Positions 52,296 to 62,712 of a stretch of 64,000 nucleotides of DNA are shown in pieces. The translations under genes were made by a program, and so were the position numbers. The DNA comes from Ancylobacter sp. IITR112. Its GTDB lineage: Bacteria; Pseudomonadota; Alphaproteobacteria; Rhizobiales; Xanthobacteraceae. Every line of letters starts with the position of its first letter. Position 1 is the stretch's first letter. Under the pieces are notes generated by a model that was not told where the DNA came from, searched no databases, and saw nothing but the letters and a program-made list of their open reading frames with translations. The DNA is taken from the NCBI RefSeq assembly GCF_041415945.1, contig NZ_JBGCUS010000001.1, forward strand, positions 3,596,001-3,660,000. Reading direction: 5' to 3'.

Positions 52296-53370
52296 CTAGA
52301 GTTCCAGCAGAAAGCGCAGCCGCGCCCGGCCCTGCAATTGGTAGCCTATGCCCTTGGCGCCGTACTCGGCCAGGATCTCCGTCTCGCGCCCTTCCGTGTC
52401 GCCCGCCCGCAGCAGGGCTTCCAGCTCATAAAGGTGATATTGCTGGCGAAACAGAAGATCGCGCTTGATCAGCGGCGACCCGAGAAAGCGGCGGAAGAGA
52501 AAGCGGCGGAAGAGAAAGCCGCCGGAGTGAATCTGCGAGCGGGCGAGAACCGCTTCCAGCAGCCGCGTCAGGACCGTTTCCCGCTCCGGCGCAGCGCTCA
52601 GCACCGGGGCACGCAGATCGAGCGGGAGATGGGCGGCGAGGCTGCGCAGGGTGGGCACGTCGAGGCCAGCAAGGACCGCGCGCAAATCGGTCAGGTTGAA
52701 GACCACCTCGACCGACCTGGCCTCACGCAGCATGCAGCGGGAGCTGCCCACCTTGCCCTTGCCGATGGCCAAGGCCGGGCGTTGACCGGCAGATAATTGC
52801 GCCAGAACGCCTGGAAGGCCGGCCGCTCCAGCATGTGGCGCGAGATCGAGTAGCAGAAGGACTGGATGTGGTGGCGAAGCTCCCAGTTCTCGAAGGTCGC
52901 GCAGACATCGCAGGAGGAGGTCGCGAGCTTCCGGAACATCTCGGCGAGACCTGAGCGGAAATAATAGACGCTGTCACTCATGATCAGCAGGCGTTCCGGC
53001 GGATCGTCGAGCAAGGAGAGAATGCCGTCACGGTAGCCGCCCATGTCGCGGCCGGCATTGTTCCGCAGCAGCACGCGGTGAACCTGCGGCAGAAGCTCCG
53101 CCAGCCGCTCCTCGCCGAGCGGATGATTGACCACGAGCGTCACATTGACGCCGACTTCCGCCAGAGCGTCGAGCGCGTTGCGCACATACCAGGGGTCGCG
53201 CGCGGCTGCCAGATGAGAAAGATCGCGTGGAGATTACCGGGATGGTGCCGCTCGCCCGGCACCTCGACCGGCGTGGCTTCCAGACGCAAGGCACCGGCGA
53301 GGCGGGCGCGCAGGACATGCAGCCGGTAATCGACCAGATCGACATAGGCCTTGCGGAAACGGAAACGCAT
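52296..53370 (-). pseudogene. RgpF-like rhamnan/LPS synthesis protein, two frameshifts
   Basis: Three overlapping segments in different frames read as one protein. 53370-53192 gives RFRKAYVDLVDYRLHVLRAR through LHAIFLIWQPRATP. 53185-52775 gives YVRNALDALAEVGVNVTLVV, LLRNNAGRDMGGYRDG and ENWELRHHIQSFCYSISRHM. 52772-52296 gives AIGKGKVGSSRCMLREARSV onward. These are blocks of the RgpF (rhamnan synthesis F) family. A lost base in the run at 53192-53195 and another near 52768-52780 would each restore the frame. Either the gene is decaying or both are sequencing errors in GC-rich runs. Full length would be about 358 residues. Confidence 0.75.
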
Positions 53371-53564
53371 GGATCAACCGAGAAAACGTGCGCCGACACT
53401 CCCGCTCGGGACACGCCGAACGGCGATGAGCCCGGCGCAGGCGCGCCGCCGCGCCCTGTCAGCCCGACAGGCACTACATGAATACCCCATGAGAGACGAC
53501 AGGCGGCGCGGGCTGCTTTTCAGCCATTCCAAGAATGGCGCAGGGGCGGCGCCCGCCGCGCCGG

Positions 53565-55376
53565 CTAGGCCCCGACTTGCTGCGCCTGCAGCGCCCCGAG
53601 GCTTCCCGTCGGGAACGCCTCCTCCGGCGTCGCGCACAGGCCCCGGCGGGTTAGCCATCGACCGAGCGCCGGCTCGGCGGTGAGCACCGCGAAGGGCACG
53701 GCGGCGAGCAGCGCCACCAGCATGGGCAGCGCCCAAGGCAGCGCACCCGGCGCGAAGCCGGCGAGCAGCGCCGCCAGCGCGGCACCGAACAGGAATTGCG
53801 GCCACAGGCCGGCGAGAGCGGTGCGCCAGGACAGCCGTTCGGCATCGCGCGCCTGCGCCTCCCACGTCACCGTGCGGCCGAACAAGAGGCCGAGCATGAA
53901 AAGCGCGATGCGGAAGGCCACCACCGGCCCCAGCAGAACCGAAAACACGAATTCCGCCAGCGCGCCGCCTACCAGCCGGCCGGTTCCGCCATAACGCTGC
54001 CGCTCGCCGGCGCGCAGCACCACGTCGAGCAGGCCGGCGATCTTGGGCGCGAGGCTCATCGCGAACATGGCGGCGAACAGGGTCAGGCCGAGAGCGGCGG
54101 GAAAGGGGGCGTCCGTCGTTTCCGTGTCGAATACTTTCAGCGCCGCCACGGCGACGAACGCCATCCAGGCGACGGCGCCGAGATACATCAGCATCGCCCA
54201 GGCAATCTGGAAACGGCTCATCGGCTTGAGGCCAGGCAGGGTGAGCAGGCGCCAATACTGCATGTTGCCCTGGCACCAGCGCAGATCGCGGCGGGTGAAT
54301 TCGGTCAGATGCGGCGGGTTTTCCTCGTAGCTGTCCATCTCTTCCGGCAGTACCCGCACCTCATAGCCGGCGCGGCGCATCAGCACGGCTTCGATCTGGT
54401 CGTGGGAGAGAATGGGACCGGCGAGCGGGCCCTTGCCGGGCAGGTTCGGGAGGCGGCAGTGCGCCTTGAACGGGGCGATGCGGATGACGGCGTTGTGCCC
54501 CCAATAGGGACCGCAATCACCCGCCCACCATGAGGCGCCCATCGTGTAGGAGCGCATGCCGTGGCGCATGCCGAACTGGAAGATGCGGGCGAAGGGCGAG
54601 GGCGACGGCAGGCCGACCACCAGGCTCTGGAGAATGCCAAGCTGTTGATTGGCCTGCATGATCCGCACGAGGCGCAACGTCGCCCCGGCACCGAGGAAGC
54701 TGTCGGCGTCGAGCGTGATCATGTAGTCGTAGTCATCCCCCCAGCGGTCAAGGAAATCGCGTATATTACCGGCCTTGAAGCCTTCATTGCTGGTGCGGCG
54801 GCGGTAGTGAAGCGATGACGTTCCGCCGCTCTCCGCCCGCCAGGCGGCGAATAATCGCTCCTCTTCCGTCGCTATTTCCGGCTGATTTGTGTCAGACAAC
54901 ACGAACCACGCGAAGGCGTCTCCCGGATGAATTTGCGAAAGCTCGCCCTGCATGGCCCGCAGGCGGGCGAAAGCGCGGGCGGGATCTTCGTTGCGCAGCG
55001 TCATCACCATCGCGGTGCGGGCGGTGATCGGCGCGTCATCCGTGGCGCGGACGGCATAGGGATAGACGGAGCGGCGCGCGTCGCCGGGCCCGTGCAACAG
55101 CCATAAGCCGATGATGGCGTTCCAGAATCCGAGGATGGTCCAGGGCGTCGAGATACAGAAGGCGACGAGCAGCAGCCCGTCCAGCACGGTGATGCCGCCA
55201 TGACCGATGAGGTGGATGAAAAGGCCGATGAGACCGAAATAGGTCACGCCGATCAGCGTGAACACCAGCGCCCGGCGCCGGGCCAGTTCCCGCACCGTCT
55301 GCACGCCGGTGGGGGTGAGCCGCGCGCGCTCACCAAGCGTGAAGCGTCCTTCGGCGATGTTCTCGTCCACACTCAT
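53565..55376 (-). CDS. mdoH: Glucans biosynthesis glucosyltransferase H
   Basis: Inner-membrane GT2 enzyme that polymerises and exports osmoregulated periplasmic glucan, 603 residues. It has two N-terminal helices and four or more C-terminal helices. The GT core shows TLDADSFLG (DxD), SHDQIEAVLMRRAGYEV and RRDLRWCQGN, the OpgH form of the QxxRW motif. It is shorter than E. coli OpgH (about 850) by its N-terminal cytoplasmic domain. No opgG is next to it. Diverges from the pterin-like cluster. Confidence 0.94.
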   Translation of the reverse strand: MSVDENIAEGRFTLGERARLTPTGVQTVRELARRRALVFTLIGVTYFGLIGLFIHLIGHGGITVLDGLLLVAFCISTPWTILGFWNAIIGLWLLHGPGDARRSVYPYAVRATDDAPITARTAMVMTLRNEDPARAFARLRAMQGELSQIHPGDAFAWFVLSDTNQPEIATEEERLFAAWRAESGGTSSLHYRRRTSNEGFKAGNIRDFLDRWGDDYDYMITLDADSFLGAGATLRLVRIMQANQQLGILQSLVVGLPSPSPFARIFQFGMRHGMRSYTMGASWWAGDCGPYWGHNAVIRIAPFKAHCRLPNLPGKGPLAGPILSHDQIEAVLMRRAGYEVRVLPEEMDSYEENPPHLTEFTRRDLRWCQGNMQYWRLLTLPGLKPMSRFQIAWAMLMYLGAVAWMAFVAVAALKVFDTETTDAPFPAALGLTLFAAMFAMSLAPKIAGLLDVVLRAGERQRYGGTGRLVGGALAEFVFSVLLGPVVAFRIALFMLGLLFGRTVTWEAQARDAERLSWRTALAGLWPQFLFGAALAALLAGFAPGALPWALPMLVALLAAVPFAVLTAEPALGRWLTRRGLCATPEEAFPTGSLGALQAQQVGA

Positions 55377-55531
55377 GCGGGTCCCCGGATCGGCGCTGGC
55401 GAGCGGCCACCATGGTCGCGCTCCGCAGGCTTGTACGCGCCCCGTGGCGGGTGGTTCACGCGCTTTTGGGGATCTAACCGGACCGTGATGCTGTTATGCA
55501 CGCGGAAAGAGCGGCAGGGGTGGCATCCGCG

Positions 55532-56533
55532 ATGGACGACAGATCGGAGATGAGCCGGCAACTCTGGTGCGCCGGCCCGGGCCGCTACGAGCTGCGGCGC
55601 GCCCCGCTGCCCGCGCGGGCGGGCGACAGCGACGACGCGGGCGAAACGCTGACCATACGCGCCCTCGTCTCGGCGGTGAGCCGGGGCACGGAGCGGCTGG
55701 TGCTGGACGGCGCGGTGCCGGCGGGCGAGCGGGGGCGCATGCGGGCGCCGTTCCAGAATGGGGATTTCCCCTTCCCCGTCCACTATGGCTATCAGAGCGT
55801 CGGCGTTGTCGAGGACGGGCCGGCGGACTGGATCGGCCGCACCATCTTCGCGCTCTTTCCGCATCAGGACCGCTACCGTCTCCCGCTCGCGGCGGCGATG
55901 CCGGTGCCGGAGGGCCTGCCGCCCGCGCGGGCGGCCCTCGCCGCGAATATGGAGACCGCGCTCAACGCGGTGTGGGATTCCGGCGCCGGGCCGGGCGACC
56001 GCATCACCATTGTCGGCGGCGGGGTGGTCGGGCTGCTGCTTACCGCGCTTACCGCACGGCTTCCCGGCGCCGAGGTGACGCTGGTGGATGTGAACCCGGC
56101 GCGCGAAGGGCTGGCGCGCGCCTTCGGCGCGGCCTTCGCCATGCCGGACGCCATCGGCGACGATGCCGACCTCGTCTTCCACACCAGCGCCAGCGCCGCC
56201 GGCCTCGCCACCGCGCTTTCGGCGGCGGCGTTCGAGGCGAAGGTGGTGGAGGTGAGCTGGTTTGGCGGCCACGCCCCCGCCGTGCCGCTGGGCGAGGCCT
56301 TTCACAGCCGGCGGCTGCAACTGATCGGCTCGCAGGTCGGCTGCGTATCTCCTTCACGGCGGCCGCGCTGGCCGCATGCGCGCCGGCTGGCCAAGGCTCT
56401 CGCTTTGCTCGACGATGCGCGGCTCGACCAATTGGTCAGTCATGTCGTCGCCTTTGACGAGGCGCCGCACCGGCTGCCGCCACTTCTGACCGGGGGCGAG
56501 GACGCGCTGGCGATCCTGCTCGATTACCGATGA
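55532..56533 (+). CDS. Alcohol-dehydrogenase-like (MDR) oxidoreductase, pterin-cluster gene
   Basis: MDR-fold protein, 333 residues from the ATG at 55532 (alternatives at 55496 and 55550). The cofactor site is ITIVGGGVVGLLLTALTA followed by DVNPAREGLARAFGA. HYGYQSVGVVEDGPADWIG is the usual substrate-loop region. The structural zinc cysteine cluster and the common GHE catalytic-zinc block are missing, so it may be a zinc-free member. It is the first gene of an operon whose next start lies in its stop region. Context suggests it reduces a pterin or sugar intermediate. Confidence 0.87.
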   Translation: MDDRSEMSRQLWCAGPGRYELRRAPLPARAGDSDDAGETLTIRALVSAVSRGTERLVLDGAVPAGERGRMRAPFQNGDFPFPVHYGYQSVGVVEDGPADWIGRTIFALFPHQDRYRLPLAAAMPVPEGLPPARAALAANMETALNAVWDSGAGPGDRITIVGGGVVGLLLTALTARLPGAEVTLVDVNPAREGLARAFGAAFAMPDAIGDDADLVFHTSASAAGLATALSAAAFEAKVVEVSWFGGHAPAVPLGEAFHSRRLQLIGSQVGCVSPSRRPRWPHARRLAKALALLDDARLDQLVSHVVAFDEAPHRLPPLLTGGEDALAILLDYR

Positions 56534-56541
56534 GGGATGCC

Positions 56542-56943
56542 ATGTACTGTGTCGAAGTCCGCGATCGCATCATGATCGCCCATTCGCTGCCCGACCCGTT
56601 CTTCGGCCCGGCGCAGGGCCTGCACGGCGCGACCTTCGTGGTCGATGTCGCCTTCTTCCGCGCCGAACTGACGGCGACGCAGGTGGTGGTGGATATCGGC
56701 GCCGCGCTCGACGTGTTGAAGGCGACGCTGGCGCCGCTCGCCTATCAGAATCTCGACACGCTGCCTCAGTTTGCCGGCAAACTCACAACGACCGAATTTC
56801 TCGCCCGCTATATTTTCGACGCCATCGCCGCCGCCGCGCGGAGCGGCGCGCTGGGAGAGGACGGGCACGGGCTGGCAAAGATCAAGGTGACGCTGCACGA
56901 GACCGACCTCGCCCGCGCCAGCTTCGAAGCTGGCCTCGGCTGA
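56542..56943 (+). CDS. PTPS/QueD-fold protein lacking key catalytic residues
   Basis: 133 residues; start at the ATG at 56542, after GAGGG. The fold of 6-pyruvoyl-tetrahydropterin/6-carboxy-tetrahydropterin synthases is recognisable. Zinc ligand His14 (IAHSL) is kept, and Glu120 (LHETDLARASF) fits the pterin-anchoring Glu. But the CxxxHGH block reads AQGLHGATF: the catalytic Cys is Ala24, and the second zinc His is Ala30 after His28. The usual LDH is LDT (Asp72, Thr73). It either has a different reaction or binds without catalysis. It sits between the dehydrogenase and glycosyltransferase. Confidence 0.85.
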   Translation: MYCVEVRDRIMIAHSLPDPFFGPAQGLHGATFVVDVAFFRAELTATQVVVDIGAALDVLKATLAPLAYQNLDTLPQFAGKLTTTEFLARYIFDAIAAAARSGALGEDGHGLAKIKVTLHETDLARASFEAGLG

Positions 56944-56952
56944 GGCGGCGGC

Positions 56953-57999
56953 GTGGACGCTTTCACCTTCGCCATTCCCGGTGATCTGAGCCTGCCGACG
57001 GGCGGCTATGCCTATGACCGCCGGGTGATCGAGGAGGCGCCCGGCGCCGGCGGGATGCTGACCCCGCTCGCCCTGCCGCCCGGCTTCCCCTTTCCCACCG
57101 GCGCGGAACTGGAGGCGAGCGCGCAGGCGCTCGCCGCCCTGCCGCCCGGCCAGAAGGTGCTGATCGACGGGCTCGCCTTCGGCGCGCTGCCGGTGGACCT
57201 GCTGCAGGCGCTGGGGCGGCCGCTGGCGGCGTTGGTGCACCATCCGCTGGCACTGGAAAGCGGGCTCGGCGAGGGGCAGCGGGCGGCGCTGTTCGCCAGT
57301 GAAAAGGCGGCGCTGGCCCAGGCGCAGGCGGTGATCGCCACCAGCCCCGCGACCGCGCGGCGGCTGGTGCAGGATTACGGCGTGCCGCCGGGGCGGCTCT
57401 GCGTCGCCCTGCCGGGCACCGACCCCGCCCCCCGGGCCCGTGGCAGCGGGCAGCCGCCGCGTCTGCTGGCGGTGGGCGCGGTGATTCCGCGCAAGGCGCA
57501 TGGCGTGCTGGTGGAGGCGCTGGCGCGGCTGACCGATCTCGCCTGGGACTGCCGCATCGTCGGCGCCACCGACCGCGATCCCGCGGAGACCGCGCGTGTT
57601 TCCGGGCTGATCGACACCCATGGCCTTGGCGACCGCATCCGGCTCACCGGGGCGCTGGCGCCGGAACTCCTCGCGGAGGTATTCGACGACGCCGATCTGT
57701 TCGTCACCGCCTCGCTGTTCGAGGGCTATGGCATGGGGTTGACGGAAGCGCTGGCGCGCGGCCTGCCGCTTGTCGCCACCCGCGCCGGGGCCATTCCCGA
57801 CACCGTGCCGGCGGAGACCGCCCTGCTGGTGGAACCGGGCGACGCGGCAGGCCTCGCGCAAGCGCTGCGCGATCTGATCGCGGCGCCGCACACCCGCGCG
57901 CGCCTCGCGCAAGCGGCGTGGCGCCATGGCCAGAACCTGCCGAGCTGGACCCAGACCGCGGCGACGGTGCTCGCCGCCCTGAAGGAGATGCCCCGATGA
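56953..57999 (+). CDS. Glycosyltransferase family 4 (GT-B fold)
   Basis: Retaining sugar transferase, 348 residues, GTG start at 56953 after GAGGCGG. The N-terminal domain opens FTFAIPGDLSLPTGGYAYDR, and VHHPLALE lies near residue 97. The C-terminal nucleotide-sugar domain has RLLAVGAVIPRKAHGVLVEAL and the ExxxxxxxE pattern EGYGMGLTEALARGLP. No membrane helix is seen, so it acts in the cytoplasm. Its stop overlaps the methyltransferase start. In this setting the acceptor is probably a pterin or pterin-like product. Confidence 0.9.
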   Translation: MDAFTFAIPGDLSLPTGGYAYDRRVIEEAPGAGGMLTPLALPPGFPFPTGAELEASAQALAALPPGQKVLIDGLAFGALPVDLLQALGRPLAALVHHPLALESGLGEGQRAALFASEKAALAQAQAVIATSPATARRLVQDYGVPPGRLCVALPGTDPAPRARGSGQPPRLLAVGAVIPRKAHGVLVEALARLTDLAWDCRIVGATDRDPAETARVSGLIDTHGLGDRIRLTGALAPELLAEVFDDADLFVTASLFEGYGMGLTEALARGLPLVATRAGAIPDTVPAETALLVEPGDAAGLAQALRDLIAAPHTRARLAQAAWRHGQNLPSWTQTAATVLAALKEMPR

Positions 58000-58832
58000 G
58001 CGGCTTTGCTGCCGACTGGCTGGCCCTGCGCGAGCCGGTGGACCATGCCTCCCGCAACCCGGCGCTGCTGGCGCGGGTGAAGGCGCATTTCGCCGGGCGT
58101 GACGCGCTCACCATTGTCGATCTCGGCTGTGGCACCGGCTCCAATCTTCGCGGCCTCGCCGCCGACCTGCCGCCCCGCCAGCACTGGCACCTGATCGACG
58201 GCGACAGGCTGCTGCTGGACCGGGCGCGCGCGGCCCTGGCCTCCTGGGCCGATCGGGCGGAAAGGGCGGGCGAGCGGCTCGTGCTGCACCGGGACGGGCG
58301 GGTGATCGAGGTGAGCTTCGAACAGGCCGACCTGACCCGCCGCAGCCTCGACTTCGCCGCGCTCGGCGCCGAGCTGGTGACCGCCGCCGCGCTGTTCGAC
58401 CTCGTCTCCGAGGACTGGCTGGAACGCCTTGTCGCCGGCCTCGCCGCGCGCCGCCTGCCGCTCTATGCCGTGCTCAACTATGATGGCGAGGCCGAATGGT
58501 CGCCCGCCGAGCCGCTGGACGGCCGGGTGATCGCCGCCTTCAACCGCCACCAGCGCGGCGACAAGGGCTTCGGGCCGGCGCTCGGGCCGGCCGCCAGCGA
58601 GGCGCTGGCCCAACTGCTGCGCCAGCATGGCTACCGCTATGGCTCGCTCACCAGCCCGTGGGTGCTCGGCCCTGGCGAGGCGGCGCTGATCGGCGCCCTC
58701 ACCGATGGCTTCGCGCAGGCGGCGGGCGCGATCGAGCCGGAGCGGCGGGCGGACTTCGCCGCCTGGGCGCGCGCGCAGGCCGCGGCGCAGACGGTGCGGA
58801 TCGGCCATCGCGATGTGTTCGGCCACCTCTGA
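57996..58832 (+). CDS. Class I SAM-dependent methyltransferase
   Basis: 278 residues from the ATG at 57996 with GAAGGAG upstream. SAM site LTIVDLGCGTGSNLRGLA at about 45-62, followed by HLIDGDRLLLDRAR. The substrate part is helical. Last gene of the four-gene operon, converging on cytochrome b561 with an 18-base gap. It may methylate the pterin or its sugar. Substrate is inferred from context. Confidence 0.9.
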   Translation: MSGFAADWLALREPVDHASRNPALLARVKAHFAGRDALTIVDLGCGTGSNLRGLAADLPPRQHWHLIDGDRLLLDRARAALASWADRAERAGERLVLHRDGRVIEVSFEQADLTRRSLDFAALGAELVTAAALFDLVSEDWLERLVAGLAARRLPLYAVLNYDGEAEWSPAEPLDGRVIAAFNRHQRGDKGFGPALGPAASEALAQLLRQHGYRYGSLTSPWVLGPGEAALIGALTDGFAQAAGAIEPERRADFAAWARAQAAAQTVRIGHRDVFGHL

Positions 58833-58850
58833 GGCGGCGCGGGCGCCGGC

Positions 58851-59420
58851 TCAGACCGGGGGCCACATCCGCGCCATCACCCCGTCGCGCTTGATCAGAC
58901 GGTGATAGAGCGCGGCAGCGATATGAGCGAGCGCCAGCACGCCGAGAAGCTGCGCCAGCAGGCCGTGCAGGCCGAGAATCCGCTTGGCCAGCGCCTCGTC
59001 GGGCGCCAGCAGCGCCGGCAGATCGAACAGGCCGAACACGTTGAGCGCGGGATAGGCCGAGACCCCGGCCCAGCCGAGCAGCGGCACGACAAGCAGCAAC
59101 AGATACAGCGCGGCATGCACGAGGCTTGAGACCACCCGCTCGAACGGGGTGAGCGGTTCCGCCCGCGCCGGCTCGCCCCGGCGCAGCCGCACCAGCACCC
59201 GCAGCACCACCAGCCACAGCACCAGAAAGCCGACGAATTTGTGCAGGCTGTAGAGCGAGCCGGTCAGCGCGTCGAAGCCGGTCGCTTCCCCGCGCGCCAC
59301 CATATAGAGCCCGAGCGGGATGAGACCGATGACGAGGAGCGCGACCACAAAGTGCAGCAGACGGGCGGTGGGTGCGTAGCGATAGCGGGCCGCCAGCACG
59401 TTCCGATCAGACGCCGACAT
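58851..59420 (-). CDS. Cytochrome b561 family diheme membrane protein
   Basis: 189 residues from the ATG at 59420. Four helices with paired heme His: LLHFVVALLVIGLIPLGLY (first), HKFVGFLVLWLVVLRVLVRL, SSLVHAALYLLLLVVPLLG and GLHGLLAQLLGVLALAHIAAALYHRLI, split here by residue number. It overlaps the RibD-like gene by 14 bases and would pass electrons to or from the quinone pool. Its place inside a pterin-type cluster may mean redox of the pterin in the membrane, or only chance adjacency. Confidence 0.9.
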   Translation of the reverse strand: MSASDRNVLAARYRYAPTARLLHFVVALLVIGLIPLGLYMVARGEATGFDALTGSLYSLHKFVGFLVLWLVVLRVLVRLRRGEPARAEPLTPFERVVSSLVHAALYLLLLVVPLLGWAGVSAYPALNVFGLFDLPALLAPDEALAKRILGLHGLLAQLLGVLALAHIAAALYHRLIKRDGVMARMWPPV

Positions 59421-60132
59421 CCGTCTCTCCCTCGCCGGTTCCGCGCAGGTCACAGTCGCAGAGAATATTGCCATCGTCGAGCAGATAGGTATCGACGCGC
59501 GGCCGCAGCGCGCCGTCCAGCCCGTCGATCGGCCGCAAGGCGAGGCCCGGCCGGCCGGAGCCGAGAATGATCGGCGCGACGCAGACATGCAGCCGGTCCA
59601 CCTGCCCGGCGTCGATGAAGCGCGAGACGGTGGAGGCGCCGCCCTCCACCAGAATGCGGCGATGGCCGCGCGCCGCCAGCGCGGCGATGAGCTTAGCCGG
59701 CTCGAAGATATCGGGCTCATCCTGCGCGCCGATCCGCTCGACCGCCTCCGGCCAGCCGGCGTCATTATGGGTGAACACGATTCTGTGACAGCCGTCCGGC
59801 GCGAGCCATTTGGCGTCGCGCGGCGAGCGGCCGGTGCGGTCGATCACCGCCCGCGCCGGGCTGCGCCCCGGCACCCGGCGGGTGGTCAGGCGGGGGTTGT
59901 CCGCCACCACCGTGCCGACGCCGACCACCACCACATCCACCAGAGCGCGCAGCCGGTGGAGATGGTCGAGCCCACACAGGCCGTTGATATCGCGTGATTT
60001 TCCCGTCGGCGTGGCAATCCGGCCGTCGAGCGACTGGCCGAGCTGGGCGACGACATAGGGCGTGGCGCGCGGCCGCAGCAGCGGCTCATAGAGCGCGGCC
60101 AGCGGGTCGGTCGGTAGCTCACGACGATTCAC
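59407..60132 (-). CDS. RibD C-terminal-domain reductase, stand-alone
   Basis: NADPH-dependent pyrimidine/pterin reductase of the RibD-C/DHFR fold, 241 residues from the GTG at 60132 (GGGGG upstream; a GTG at 60165 lacks a site). PYVVAQLGQSLDGRIA opens the domain; VDVVVVGVGTVVADNPRLT and RRILVEGGASTVSRFIDAG are diagnostic. The N-terminal zinc deaminase of normal RibD is absent. It is divergent from ribA-like gene. It probably reduces an intermediate of the GTP-derived pathway of this cluster, or of riboflavin. Confidence 0.9.
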   Translation of the reverse strand: MNRRELPTDPLAALYEPLLRPRATPYVVAQLGQSLDGRIATPTGKSRDINGLCGLDHLHRLRALVDVVVVGVGTVVADNPRLTTRRVPGRSPARAVIDRTGRSPRDAKWLAPDGCHRIVFTHNDAGWPEAVERIGAQDEPDIFEPAKLIAALAARGHRRILVEGGASTVSRFIDAGQVDRLHVCVAPIILGSGRPGLALRPIDGLDGALRPRVDTYLLDDGNILCDCDLRGTGEGETDVGV

Positions 60133-60265
60133 GTAAAGGCCCCCCGCTGCTTGCTGTTCGCGCACTGAACGATGAGAGGCCGGCGGCGTTGCTGGTCCGT
60201 TGGCGCCCTACATCCGTAGCTACTACGTGCAACTCACGGAAATGGTGCAGCGGGAGAAAATTCAA

Positions 60266-61435
60266 ATGAGCAGCAGCGCGACGACCGCCGGCACGATGAC
60301 GAGCCTGTTCGGCGACACCTCCCTCACCGAGGCGGAGCGCGCCATCGCCGAGATGCGCGCCGGGCGTCCGGTGGTCATCGCGCAGGCCGGGCGGCTGTTT
60401 CTGGCGGCGAGCGCGGAATATGCCGATGCCGGCCGGCTGGCGGCGCTGGACGAGTTGACCGGCGGCACGCTGCAACTGGTGCTGACCCCGGCGCGGCTGC
60501 GCGCCCTCGGCCGGCCGGAATGGAGCGAGCCGATGGCGCTGCCGGCCGCCGGGCTCGGCAGTGCGCGGATCGAGGCGCTGAGCGCGCGCCAGGCGAGCGG
60601 CGAGGAGGCGAGGACACGCGCCGGCACCGCCCTGCCGGACGAACTGGCGGCCCCGCACGCGGCCGGCGCGGCGGCGCTGCAGCTCGCCACGCTGGCGCTG
60701 ATGCTGCCAGCGGTGCTGGTCGGCCCGCTCGCCCCGGCGGCGCTGACCCTGCCGGCGCTGACCGTGCGCGCCGAGGCGATCACCCGCTATGGCGAAGACC
60801 GCGCCACCCATGTCGAGATCGTCTCGCGCGCGCCTGTGCCGCTGCTCACCGCGCGCAATTGCGAATTCGTCGTGTTCCGCGGCGGCGAGGGCCTGCGTGA
60901 ACAGGTGGCGGTGGTGGTGGGCGCGCCGGACCCGGCGCGGCCGGTGCTGGTGCGGCTGCATTCCGCCTGCCTGACCGGCGACCTGTTCGGCTCGCTGCGC
61001 TGCGACTGCGGCGACCAGTTGCGCACCACGGTGGCGACCATGGCGCAGGCCGGCGGCGGGGTGCTGCTCTATCTCGACCAGGAAGGACGGGGCAACGGCA
61101 TCGCCAACAAGATGCGCGCCTACCGGCTGCAGAGCGACGGGCTCGACACCTATGAGGCGGACGAGACGCTCGGCTTCGATCTCGACGCCCGCCGCTTCGA
61201 CTTCGCCGCCGCCATGCTGCGCCAGCTTGGCTATGAGCGCGTGGTGCTGATGACCAACAACCCCGAAAAGATCGCCGCGCTCACCCGCGCCGGGCTGCAG
61301 GTTTCCGGTGTCGAGCGGCTCTATGGGCGGCGCGGGGCGGACAATATCCGCTATCTCGCCGCCAAGCGCGACCGCGCCGGACATTTCCTCGATCTCGACG
61401 CGCTCGACCATCACGCCCCCGCCTCCTGCGGCTGA
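60266..61435 (+). CDS. ribA: GTP cyclohydrolase II with degenerate N-terminal DHBP-synthase-like domain
   Basis: 389 residues; ATG at 60266 after GGGAG. The C-terminal domain has LHSACLTGDLFGSLRCDCGDQ with the three zinc cysteines (C-x10-C-x-C), YLDQEGRGNGIANKMRAYRL, and MTNNPEKIAAL. The N-terminal 180 residues look like a decayed RibB domain (LTEAERAIAEMRAGRPVVIA) without the acidic catalytic set DDEDRENEGD. It opens the imidazole ring of GTP. Cluster context suggests a dedicated pathway in addition to riboflavin. A T-rich terminator follows. Confidence 0.93.
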   Translation: MSSSATTAGTMTSLFGDTSLTEAERAIAEMRAGRPVVIAQAGRLFLAASAEYADAGRLAALDELTGGTLQLVLTPARLRALGRPEWSEPMALPAAGLGSARIEALSARQASGEEARTRAGTALPDELAAPHAAGAAALQLATLALMLPAVLVGPLAPAALTLPALTVRAEAITRYGEDRATHVEIVSRAPVPLLTARNCEFVVFRGGEGLREQVAVVVGAPDPARPVLVRLHSACLTGDLFGSLRCDCGDQLRTTVATMAQAGGGVLLYLDQEGRGNGIANKMRAYRLQSDGLDTYEADETLGFDLDARRFDFAAAMLRQLGYERVVLMTNNPEKIAALTRAGLQVSGVERLYGRRGADNIRYLAAKRDRAGHFLDLDALDHHAPASCG

Positions 61436-61485
61436 GGCGGACTCTCCCCGTTCCCCAGGGTCTTCCTGCCGGAAGGCCCTCCTTT

Positions 61486-61517
61486 GACCCCGGCGCCCCC
61501 GCGCCGGGGTCTTTTTT
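61486..61517 (+). terminator. Rho-independent terminator after ribA-like gene
   Basis: GACCCCGGCGC, CCCC loop, GCGCCGGGGTC, then T6. Fifty bases after the stop codon. A textbook terminator. Confidence 0.93.
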
Positions 61518-61752
61518 ATGGCCGGCCTGTCCCAGGTCGAGCGCCCTGCTTCGCCCATGTCGAACCCCGCACGGCGCCGCTACTCGCCCGCTCCGCTCCG
61601 CGCCCGCCGGCCGGGCCGAGGAACGACGCGCCTGATCGCGCGCCTGAGCCAAGGCGACGCATCCCGCGCCAAAGGGAGCCGCGCCGCCCGCCCCTGACAC
61701 ATCGCCGGGAGACCGCCCGTCAGAGGCGGCCCCGCATCCCTGGGAGGAAACC

Positions 61753-62712
61753 ATGCGAAAGACCCTGACCGGCTTTCTGAGCGCCGTGCTGGCCCTGGGG
61801 CTGGGAACGCTCAGCCTCACTGCCGAACCCCTCCCCTACCCGCACAAGGTCGTTACCCTCGTTACCCATTCGAGCCCAGGCGGCGGCAGCGACCTGTTGC
61901 TGCGCCAGCTGTCGAAATATCTCGGCAAATATATCGGCGCCACCTTCGTCGTGGAGAATGTGCATGGCGGCAGCGGCGCCAAGGCGATGGCCCGCGTGGC
62001 GGCGGCCCCGGCCGATGGCAGCGTGTTCTACGCCGCCACGCCGACCTATATCCACACCTCGCTGCTCTCCAAGCCGTCCGTCACCTATAAAGACCTGGAA
62101 CCGCTGGCCAATCTGTTCGCCGACAGCGAAGTGATCTACACCCGCGCCGACGGCCCGCTCACCAGCCTCAAGGACGTGATCGACAGGGCGAAGAAGGAGC
62201 GCGTCCGCTGGGGCGCCTCCAACCCGACCTCGCTGGAGAGCCAGGCGGCGGAACGGCTCAAGCGCGCCGCCGGCGTCGACGCCACCCTCGTCACCCATGA
62301 GGGCGGCGGCGAAATCATGCTCAACGTGCTCAACGGCACGTTCGATATCGGCATCGGCGAAATCCAGGAGATCCGCTCGCAGCTCGACGCCGGCAAGATC
62401 CGCCTGCTCGCCACCTTCAACCCGCAGCGCATCCCGGAAAAGCCTGACGTGCCGACGGTGAAGGAAAGCGGCTATGATGTGACGGTGGTGAAGTTCCGCG
62501 GCCTTGCCGGCCCCAAGGGACTGCCGGACAACGTGACCAAGCTGTGGGACGAGGCGATCAAGAACGTGCTCGCCGACCCCGACTACAAGGCGCGCTACAC
62601 CGAGGAGGTGCTGGTGCCGAACTACATCCCGCACGCGCAGTACCAGGCGTTCATCACCCATTTCGCCGACACGACCGAAGCGTTCCTGAAGGAAACCGGC
62701 GCGGTGAAGTAA
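61753..62712 (+). CDS. Bug-family (TctC) tripartite tricarboxylate transporter substrate-binding protein
   Basis: Periplasmic receptor, 319 residues. Signal peptide MRKTLTGFLSAVLALGLGTLSLTA. VVTLVTHSSPGGGSDLLLRQL and FVVENVHGGSGAKAMARVA are the Bug-family ligand blocks; FRGLAGPKGLPDNV is typical of the C-terminal lobe. GGGAGGAAACC precedes the ATG. No TctA or TctB membrane gene is within the window, so it is an orphan, as is common in this family. The ligand is unknown. Confidence 0.92.
   Translation: MRKTLTGFLSAVLALGLGTLSLTAEPLPYPHKVVTLVTHSSPGGGSDLLLRQLSKYLGKYIGATFVVENVHGGSGAKAMARVAAAPADGSVFYAATPTYIHTSLLSKPSVTYKDLEPLANLFADSEVIYTRADGPLTSLKDVIDRAKKERVRWGASNPTSLESQAAERLKRAAGVDATLVTHEGGGEIMLNVLNGTFDIGIGEIQEIRSQLDAGKIRLLATFNPQRIPEKPDVPTVKESGYDVTVVKFRGLAGPKGLPDNVTKLWDEAIKNVLADPDYKARYTEEVLVPNYIPHAQYQAFITHFADTTEAFLKETGAVK

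Follow-up and report, generated by a model that had tools for sequence, protein, structure and literature searches.

A conserved gene cluster of Ancylobacter sp. IITR112, found with either of two membrane modules, may build an envelope-located pteridine or diaminopyrimidine from GTP

The genome of Ancylobacter sp. IITR112 (Alphaproteobacteria; Rhizobiales) contains a cluster of biosynthetic genes that may make an exported or membrane-tethered pteridine or diaminopyrimidine from GTP. The cluster lies in a 64,000-nucleotide stretch (the window; contig NZ_JBGCUS010000001.1, positions 3,596,001 to 3,660,000), to which the coordinates of its features refer. On the plus strand, an MDR dehydrogenase without the usual zinc-ligand motifs (MDR; 55532..56533, with 55496 as an alternative start; ADH_zinc_N 3e-8) is followed by a PTPS/T-fold protein (PTPS; 56542..56943; PF01242 2.6e-19), a GT4 glycosyltransferase (GT4; 56953..57999; PF13692 1.4e-26) and a class I S-adenosylmethionine methyltransferase (MT; 57996..58832; PF13649 6.7e-7). 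A cytochrome b561 (CYB; 58851..59420; PF01292 7.7e-27) and a stand-alone RibD-type reductase of 252 amino acids (RED; 59407..60165; RibD_C, PF01872, 1.7e-39) lie on the minus strand with a 14-nt overlap. The last gene, again on the plus strand, encodes a GTP cyclohydrolase II (GCHII; this copy is called GCH; 60200..61435, with ATG alternatives at 60242 and 60266; PF00925 3.6e-51). It is followed by an intrinsic-terminator-like hairpin (61486..61511, plus strand; 11 pairs, 10 of them G-C, and a T tail), which accounts for all three matches of a terminator search of 55300-61600 (1.8 expected in shuffles).

An earlier sequence-only reading had proposed these seven genes, and all seven open reading frames and their Pfam matches were recovered. 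They form three same-strand groups, MDR-PTPS-GT4-MT, RED-CYB and GCH, rather than one. The translational coupling through ATGA overlaps that had been suggested is genuine, as read by eye, at the GT4/MT junction (57996-57999). At MDR/PTPS it requires an upstream ATG at 56530; the conserved PTPS start at 56542 is 8 nt past the MDR stop. Divergent from MDR lies an MdoH-type membrane glucosyltransferase of family GT2 (MdoH; 53565..55376, minus strand; NF003963 928.6 bits, cut-off 884), a second, cluster-linked paralogue, and the cluster is thus larger than seven genes. The original inventory was correct in its members and incomplete, having missed MdoH, the CDP-alcohol phosphatidyltransferase/flippase module that is its alternative elsewhere, and an earlier study of Streptomyces relatives.

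To follow the cluster through other genomes, we used the PTPS gene as the marker. Among 151 relatives, 75 genomes gave strong matches (at least 131 bits); two 22-bit matches (G045 and G087) were excluded from an initial 77, and 76 genomes count as PTPS-negative. From the 75, with the Ancylobacter genome itself excluded, 58 loci were fetched, several on contigs that end early. The MDR-PTPS-GT4-MT core is contiguous in 55 of them; singly, GT4 was found in 58, MT in 57, MdoH in 48, RED in 44, CYB in 40 and GCH in 34. A second set, the best 80 of 584 named PTPS matches, some on short contigs, has a contiguous core in 56, MdoH in 51, RED in 46 and GCH in 35, with carriers among Hyphomicrobiales, Rhodobacterales, Rhodospirillales, Polynucleobacter and other Burkholderiales, and one Xanthomonas. 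Plasmids added 12 counted loci (out of 22 plasmid matches; two of the 12 are PTPS-only) from Streptomyces, Microbacterium, Arthrobacter (MDR-PTPS-GT4 found) and a purple sulfur bacterium. The three sets make up 150 loci, and since some genomes occur in both the relative and the named set, their counts are non-independent.

The core therefore recurs, sometimes plasmid-borne, across alpha-, beta- and gammaproteobacteria and actinobacteria, well beyond the Hyphomicrobiales, and compact clusters occur in Microbacterium (L257) and S. globisporus (L260). The window PTPS shares 83-90% identity with proteins recorded under the name Ancylobacter, and 25 of the 30 genus members searched carry the gene, so that the cluster is accessory within the genus. 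The PTPS gene is present in 36 of 289 sampled genomes of the class and, at 120 bits or more, in 19 of 299 in a phylum sample (seven weak matches of 20-26 bits were excluded from 26). Distances of MDR, PTPS, GT4 and MT correlate over 50 loci (0.41-0.60, null maxima 0.15-0.24, kinship ignored). Co-conservation over genera and families is far above chance, and the locus is almost certainly one biosynthetic unit, as had been claimed from the window.

Several loci carry further genes. In two Rhodobacterales variants (L180 7834-13132 and L258 4113-11887) a PfkB kinase lies near MDR-PTPS-MT-RED, and L258 further carries an inositol-monophosphatase-like gene, a detached GT4 and GCH. On two Streptomyces plasmids (L175 10001-10399 and L176 10001-10426) the cluster-type PTPS gene adjoins cupin, MEKHLA and MBL-fold genes, with no further cluster gene annotated nearby. 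On a conjugative Neorhizobium plasmid, two histidine kinases and a regulator immediately follow the cluster (L259 11537-14965). A probably exported protein without a Pfam match (L107 4032-5204 and relatives) recurs at 38 loci, and a weakly YfhO-like membrane protein (L088 1072-3360 and relatives) at 21.

GCH and RED share, by family, the first two or three reactions of the riboflavin pathway (RibA, the RibD reductase half, BrbF formamidase, RibBX); the pathways differ in that the window cluster genes include no deaminase, lumazine synthase or riboflavin synthase. GCH scores 425 bits against NF006456, below the 464 cut-off, and its N-terminal half is, by eye, RibB-like but degenerate. Aligned to 2bz0, it keeps the three zinc cysteines and the tyrosine at the E. 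coli 105 position (CLTGD..CDCG, NKMRAY), as expected of a GCHII. This position, which we take to be a Tyr/Met switch, is Tyr in 62 of 65 cluster-family GCHII frames, Leu in one, unreadable in one and Met in one (L174); L260 additionally has Met. The strict cysteine pattern matched 52 of the 65. RED is not a bifunctional RibD, PF01872 being the sole domain found and the N-terminal deaminase lacking. Like the RibD reductase it has the SLDG and DxPxLxxR motifs (5 of 5 aligned), the latter presumably involved in recognizing the ribosyl-phosphate substrate. These families are consistent with a GTP-to-diaminopyrimidine entry, in line with the role of the cyclohydrolase and reductase suggested in the sequence-only reading.

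Both enzymes follow the PTPS gene. RED is separated from RibD by score (best RED match per genome at least 84.9 bits, RibD at most 73.1) and is present in 63 of the 75 PTPS-positive relatives, five of these being partial matches of 85-152 bits, against 0 of 76 PTPS-negative ones (Fisher 1e-30). Classical GCHII, at a threshold of 146 bits or more, is present in 43 of 75 against 12 of 76 (Fisher 1e-7); both sets were counted by eye, and with related genomes the p-values are a rough guide. Again by eye, no more than about 8 kb separates GCHII from the PTPS gene in 40 of the 43; in the three exceptions GCHII adjoins RED on another contig (G069), lies on another contig (G082) or is distant (G109). 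GCH and RED belong to the cluster.

That the two are spare riboflavin enzymes beside unrelated neighbours is very improbable. GCH is a classical GCHII, and the genome's RibB (L002, C1:4287013 region) has a GCHII-like half from which the zinc cysteines are missing, an architecture resembling that of RibBX as described in PMC10012899, so the window GCH could also serve riboflavin. Against this, the genome's ribD and ribH matches lie elsewhere, 0.8 kb apart (C1:1535025-1536789), which supports a unit separate from the riboflavin genes; 15 of the 25 PTPS-positive genus members are, by eye, without classical GCHII; RED occurs among the 151 relatives solely with PTPS; and an Rfam scan across 53000-62000 returned no match, hence no FMN riboswitch at gathering score. 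The genome also holds two creatininase-family proteins and a second GCHII-like protein (L003 784-2052), its zinc cysteines intact by eye, which is presumably URC1-like and a candidate riboflavin GCHII or pyrimidine breakdown enzyme. Because of this other RibB, the URC1-like GCHII, the creatininases and the distant ribD/ribH, riboflavin synthesis does not necessarily rely on the window GCH, and the enzyme may have a shared role. Seen by eye, L002 and 60200-61435 are mirror-image paralogues, one with an intact RibB half and the other with an intact GCHII half. The sequence-only reading had named two outcomes that would count against it, genes not conserved together and a GCH that is the sole riboflavin enzyme amid unrelated genes; neither was found.

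The database names of PTPS and MDR, 6-carboxytetrahydropterin synthase and zinc-binding alcohol dehydrogenase, are doubtful, judging from their motifs. PTPS belongs to the COG0720/T-fold family by its PF01242 match and by Glu120, which we take to be the pterin-anchoring glutamate and which is kept in 13 of 13 aligned sequences. All 13 also have HGA in place of HGH, losing the third zinc histidine, and no cysteine in the FGPAQxxHGA stretch. The window protein thus has none of the signatures CxxxHGH, CxxxxxHGH and ExxHGH that PMC5041015 gives for PTPS-I/QueD, PTPS-II and PTPS-III, respectively. The initial PTPS/QueD-fold label holds at family level, and the loss of the zinc and cysteine motif leaves no ground for assuming the chemistry of PTPS or QueD. 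A queuosine-type or other 7-deazaguanine pathway, to which the recorded name would point, is extremely unlikely: the protein scores 26.7 bits against a QueD cut-off of 89.25, and no QueE or QueC product name appears in the annotated regions examined, whose gene tables are incomplete. The PTPS family is large: 7943 of 8000 scored candidates passed, a count that may include true QueD relatives. Zinc-binding MDR alcohol dehydrogenases usually bear the ligand motifs CGTD (Cys) and GHE (His); the cluster MDRs have invariant SRGTE and YGY and no invariant cysteine (32 aligned sequences).

The closest solved relative of the window PTPS is SCO6650 of Streptomyces coelicolor (PDB 3d7j, 9.9e-37), and the two are of one family. 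SCO6650 and SCO6655 were reportedly studied in earlier papers, among them one of 2006 by Spoonamore and colleagues; SCO6650 is said to be a T-fold protein with no zinc and no PTPS activity, and SCO6655 a GCHII bearing Met at the switch position and making a formylamino intermediate, from which the window enzyme differs in keeping Tyr. S. fungicidicus has a PTPS with 92% identity to SCO6650, and in this species the CDP-alcohol phosphatidyltransferase (CDP-PT), MDR, PTPS, GT4, MT, flippase, creatininase and GCHII genes lie together; no RED was found at this locus. Both Streptomyces clusters examined (L174 and L260) combine a Met-type GCHII with an adjacent creatininase-family gene (in L174, PF02633 1.5e-64). 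According to PMC9478397, experiments in S. meliloti and B. abortus showed that a creatininase-family formamidase removes the formyl group, and one remoter homologue failed to complement. We predict that the cluster creatininases are BrbF-like putative formamidases, and from a Met-type GCHII together with such an enzyme the Streptomyces cluster would reach the same diaminopyrimidine in two steps.

The remaining soluble genes suggest tailoring reactions. The MT family has 25 invariant columns in 33 aligned sequences, and the position of CYB varies among the relative loci. Cyanobacterial and Chlorobium pterin glycosides, made with a BH4 glucosyltransferase or a pteridine glycosyltransferase, offer a parallel in the pairing of a PTPS-fold enzyme with a glycosyltransferase, and a pterin glycoside is a plausible candidate product. 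Biopterin synthesis, by contrast, begins with GTP cyclohydrolase I (PMC5041015), where the window cluster has GTP cyclohydrolase II.

The membrane step takes two alternative forms at these loci, an observation that is new here. Counting MdoH with cleaned queries and a 200-bit floor, we found MdoH in 101 of the 150 loci, CDP-PT in 19, neither in 30 and both in none. The exclusion has p = 3e-11, a value that gives direction only, the loci being related and overlapping. Matches of 217-261 bits to MdoH in Rhizobiaceae loci were an artefact of a mixed query set and disappeared with the cleaned queries. The CDP-PT loci include Rhizobiaceae, Streptomyces, Microbacterium and Thiodictyon; three of the sequences, inspected by eye, have what we take to be the catalytic motif. 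An LPG-synthase-type flippase occurs at 14 loci, 13 with CDP-PT and none with MdoH. A protein annotated as 'sulfatase' (L179 4208-5791 and relatives), without a Pfam or NCBIfam match at 0.001, is found at 13 loci, of which all but one carry CDP-PT. The mutual exclusion of MdoH and the CDP-PT/flippase pair suggests an exported or membrane-tethered product, and both modules may deliver a similar soluble product to the envelope. Judged alone, an exported or membrane-linked product falls slightly short of even odds.

MdoH belongs, like OpgH of OpgGH, to the MdoH/OpgH family of GT2, and could instead make a periplasmic glucan for which the soluble enzymes supply a substituent. Its equivalog-level score, its presence at 101 of 150 loci and, in Neorhizobium L259, its co-directional position immediately 5' of MDR agree with such a role. 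The genome's only MdoG match found, however, sits with the other OpgH (C1:287151-290434) and not with the window gene. That OpgH is 33-36% identical to the window MdoH, as against 42-84% for 18 cluster MdoHs drawn from within the genus, from further families and from betaproteobacteria, and the 19 CDP-PT loci have the same core and no MdoH. We regard glucan decoration as unlikely.

Combining these findings, we infer a pathway in which GCH would open GTP to 2,5-diamino-6-ribosylamino-4(3H)-pyrimidinone 5'-phosphate, or, in Streptomyces, a Met-type GCHII would give the formyl intermediate and a BrbF-like formamidase would complete the step. RED would then reduce the ribosyl to a ribityl chain; since it has no deaminase, the pterin 2-amino group would be retained. 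The zinc-free PTPS-fold protein may bind the 2-amino-4-oxo ring and help to form or modify a second ring, and the non-zinc MDR, GT4 and MT would tailor the product. In the window, MdoH would glucosylate and export it in one protein, while elsewhere CDP-PT and the flippase would anchor it to a lipid and flip it. Cytochrome b561 may connect the pathway to the quinol pool. For this scheme in outline, in which GTP yields a pteridine or diaminopyrimidine that receives sugar and methyl groups and is either exported or tethered to the membrane, we estimate a probability of about 0.5. Taken by itself, a pteridine or diaminopyrimidine derived from GTP is the favoured, if far from certain, product class. 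We found no description of this gene set in the open-licence literature searched, a scope outside which most subscription papers fall; one paper within it, PMC2853524, names SCO6655 a single time.

Several observations weigh against the scheme. Classical GCHII is absent from 32 of the 75 PTPS-positive genomes and RED from 12, which implies that the entry steps are optional or borrowed. The creatininase is ruled out as a strict marker of Met-type GCHII by eight loci that have one with a Tyr-type GCHII, beside or near GCH in six, the other two being L148 and L054, in the latter of which it is about 11 kb away. GT4 aligns with the solved tetrahydrobiopterin glucosyltransferase at 24.5 bits over 80 residues, no special kinship, so that orthology is unsupported; its distances and those of RED are uncorrelated (0.20, null maximum 0.25), and it is unannotated at Rhodobacterales locus L180 and separated from the core in L258. 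The 30 loci with neither membrane module also count here, although some of their contigs are short and two are PTPS-only.

Another explanation is that the cluster makes a secreted pterin that acts as a signal, as in the PruA-PruR-DcpA system. The 2026 review PMC13259868 describes periplasmic pterin signalling in Agrobacterium, leaves the exact pterin and its export unexplained, and calls the pterin route to the periplasm unknown; the histidine kinases just downstream of the cluster in Neorhizobium L259 would suit such a signal. The published signal, however, needs PruA, a pteridine reductase for which the cluster has no gene, and the cluster is present in actinobacteria too, making this explanation improbable.

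Within the envelope-located pteridine scheme, a more specific and quite speculative version, which we hold to be unlikely, is that a lipid-anchored pteridine acts as a membrane redox cofactor of a new class. CDP-PT would use as its polyol-phosphate acceptor the ribityl-phosphate of a 2-amino-8-ribityl-type pteridine, which would then be flipped outward; in the MdoH lineages the same head group would be glucosylated and exported instead, and cytochrome b561 would exchange electrons with the pteridine at the membrane. If the general scheme is true, the riboflavin precursor would have a second, widespread fate in proteobacteria and actinobacteria, an envelope-located pteridine. It would also give a function to the orphan SCO6650 and SCO6655, to a large family misnamed QueD-like and to the second MdoH, and would bear on how pterins reach the periplasm.

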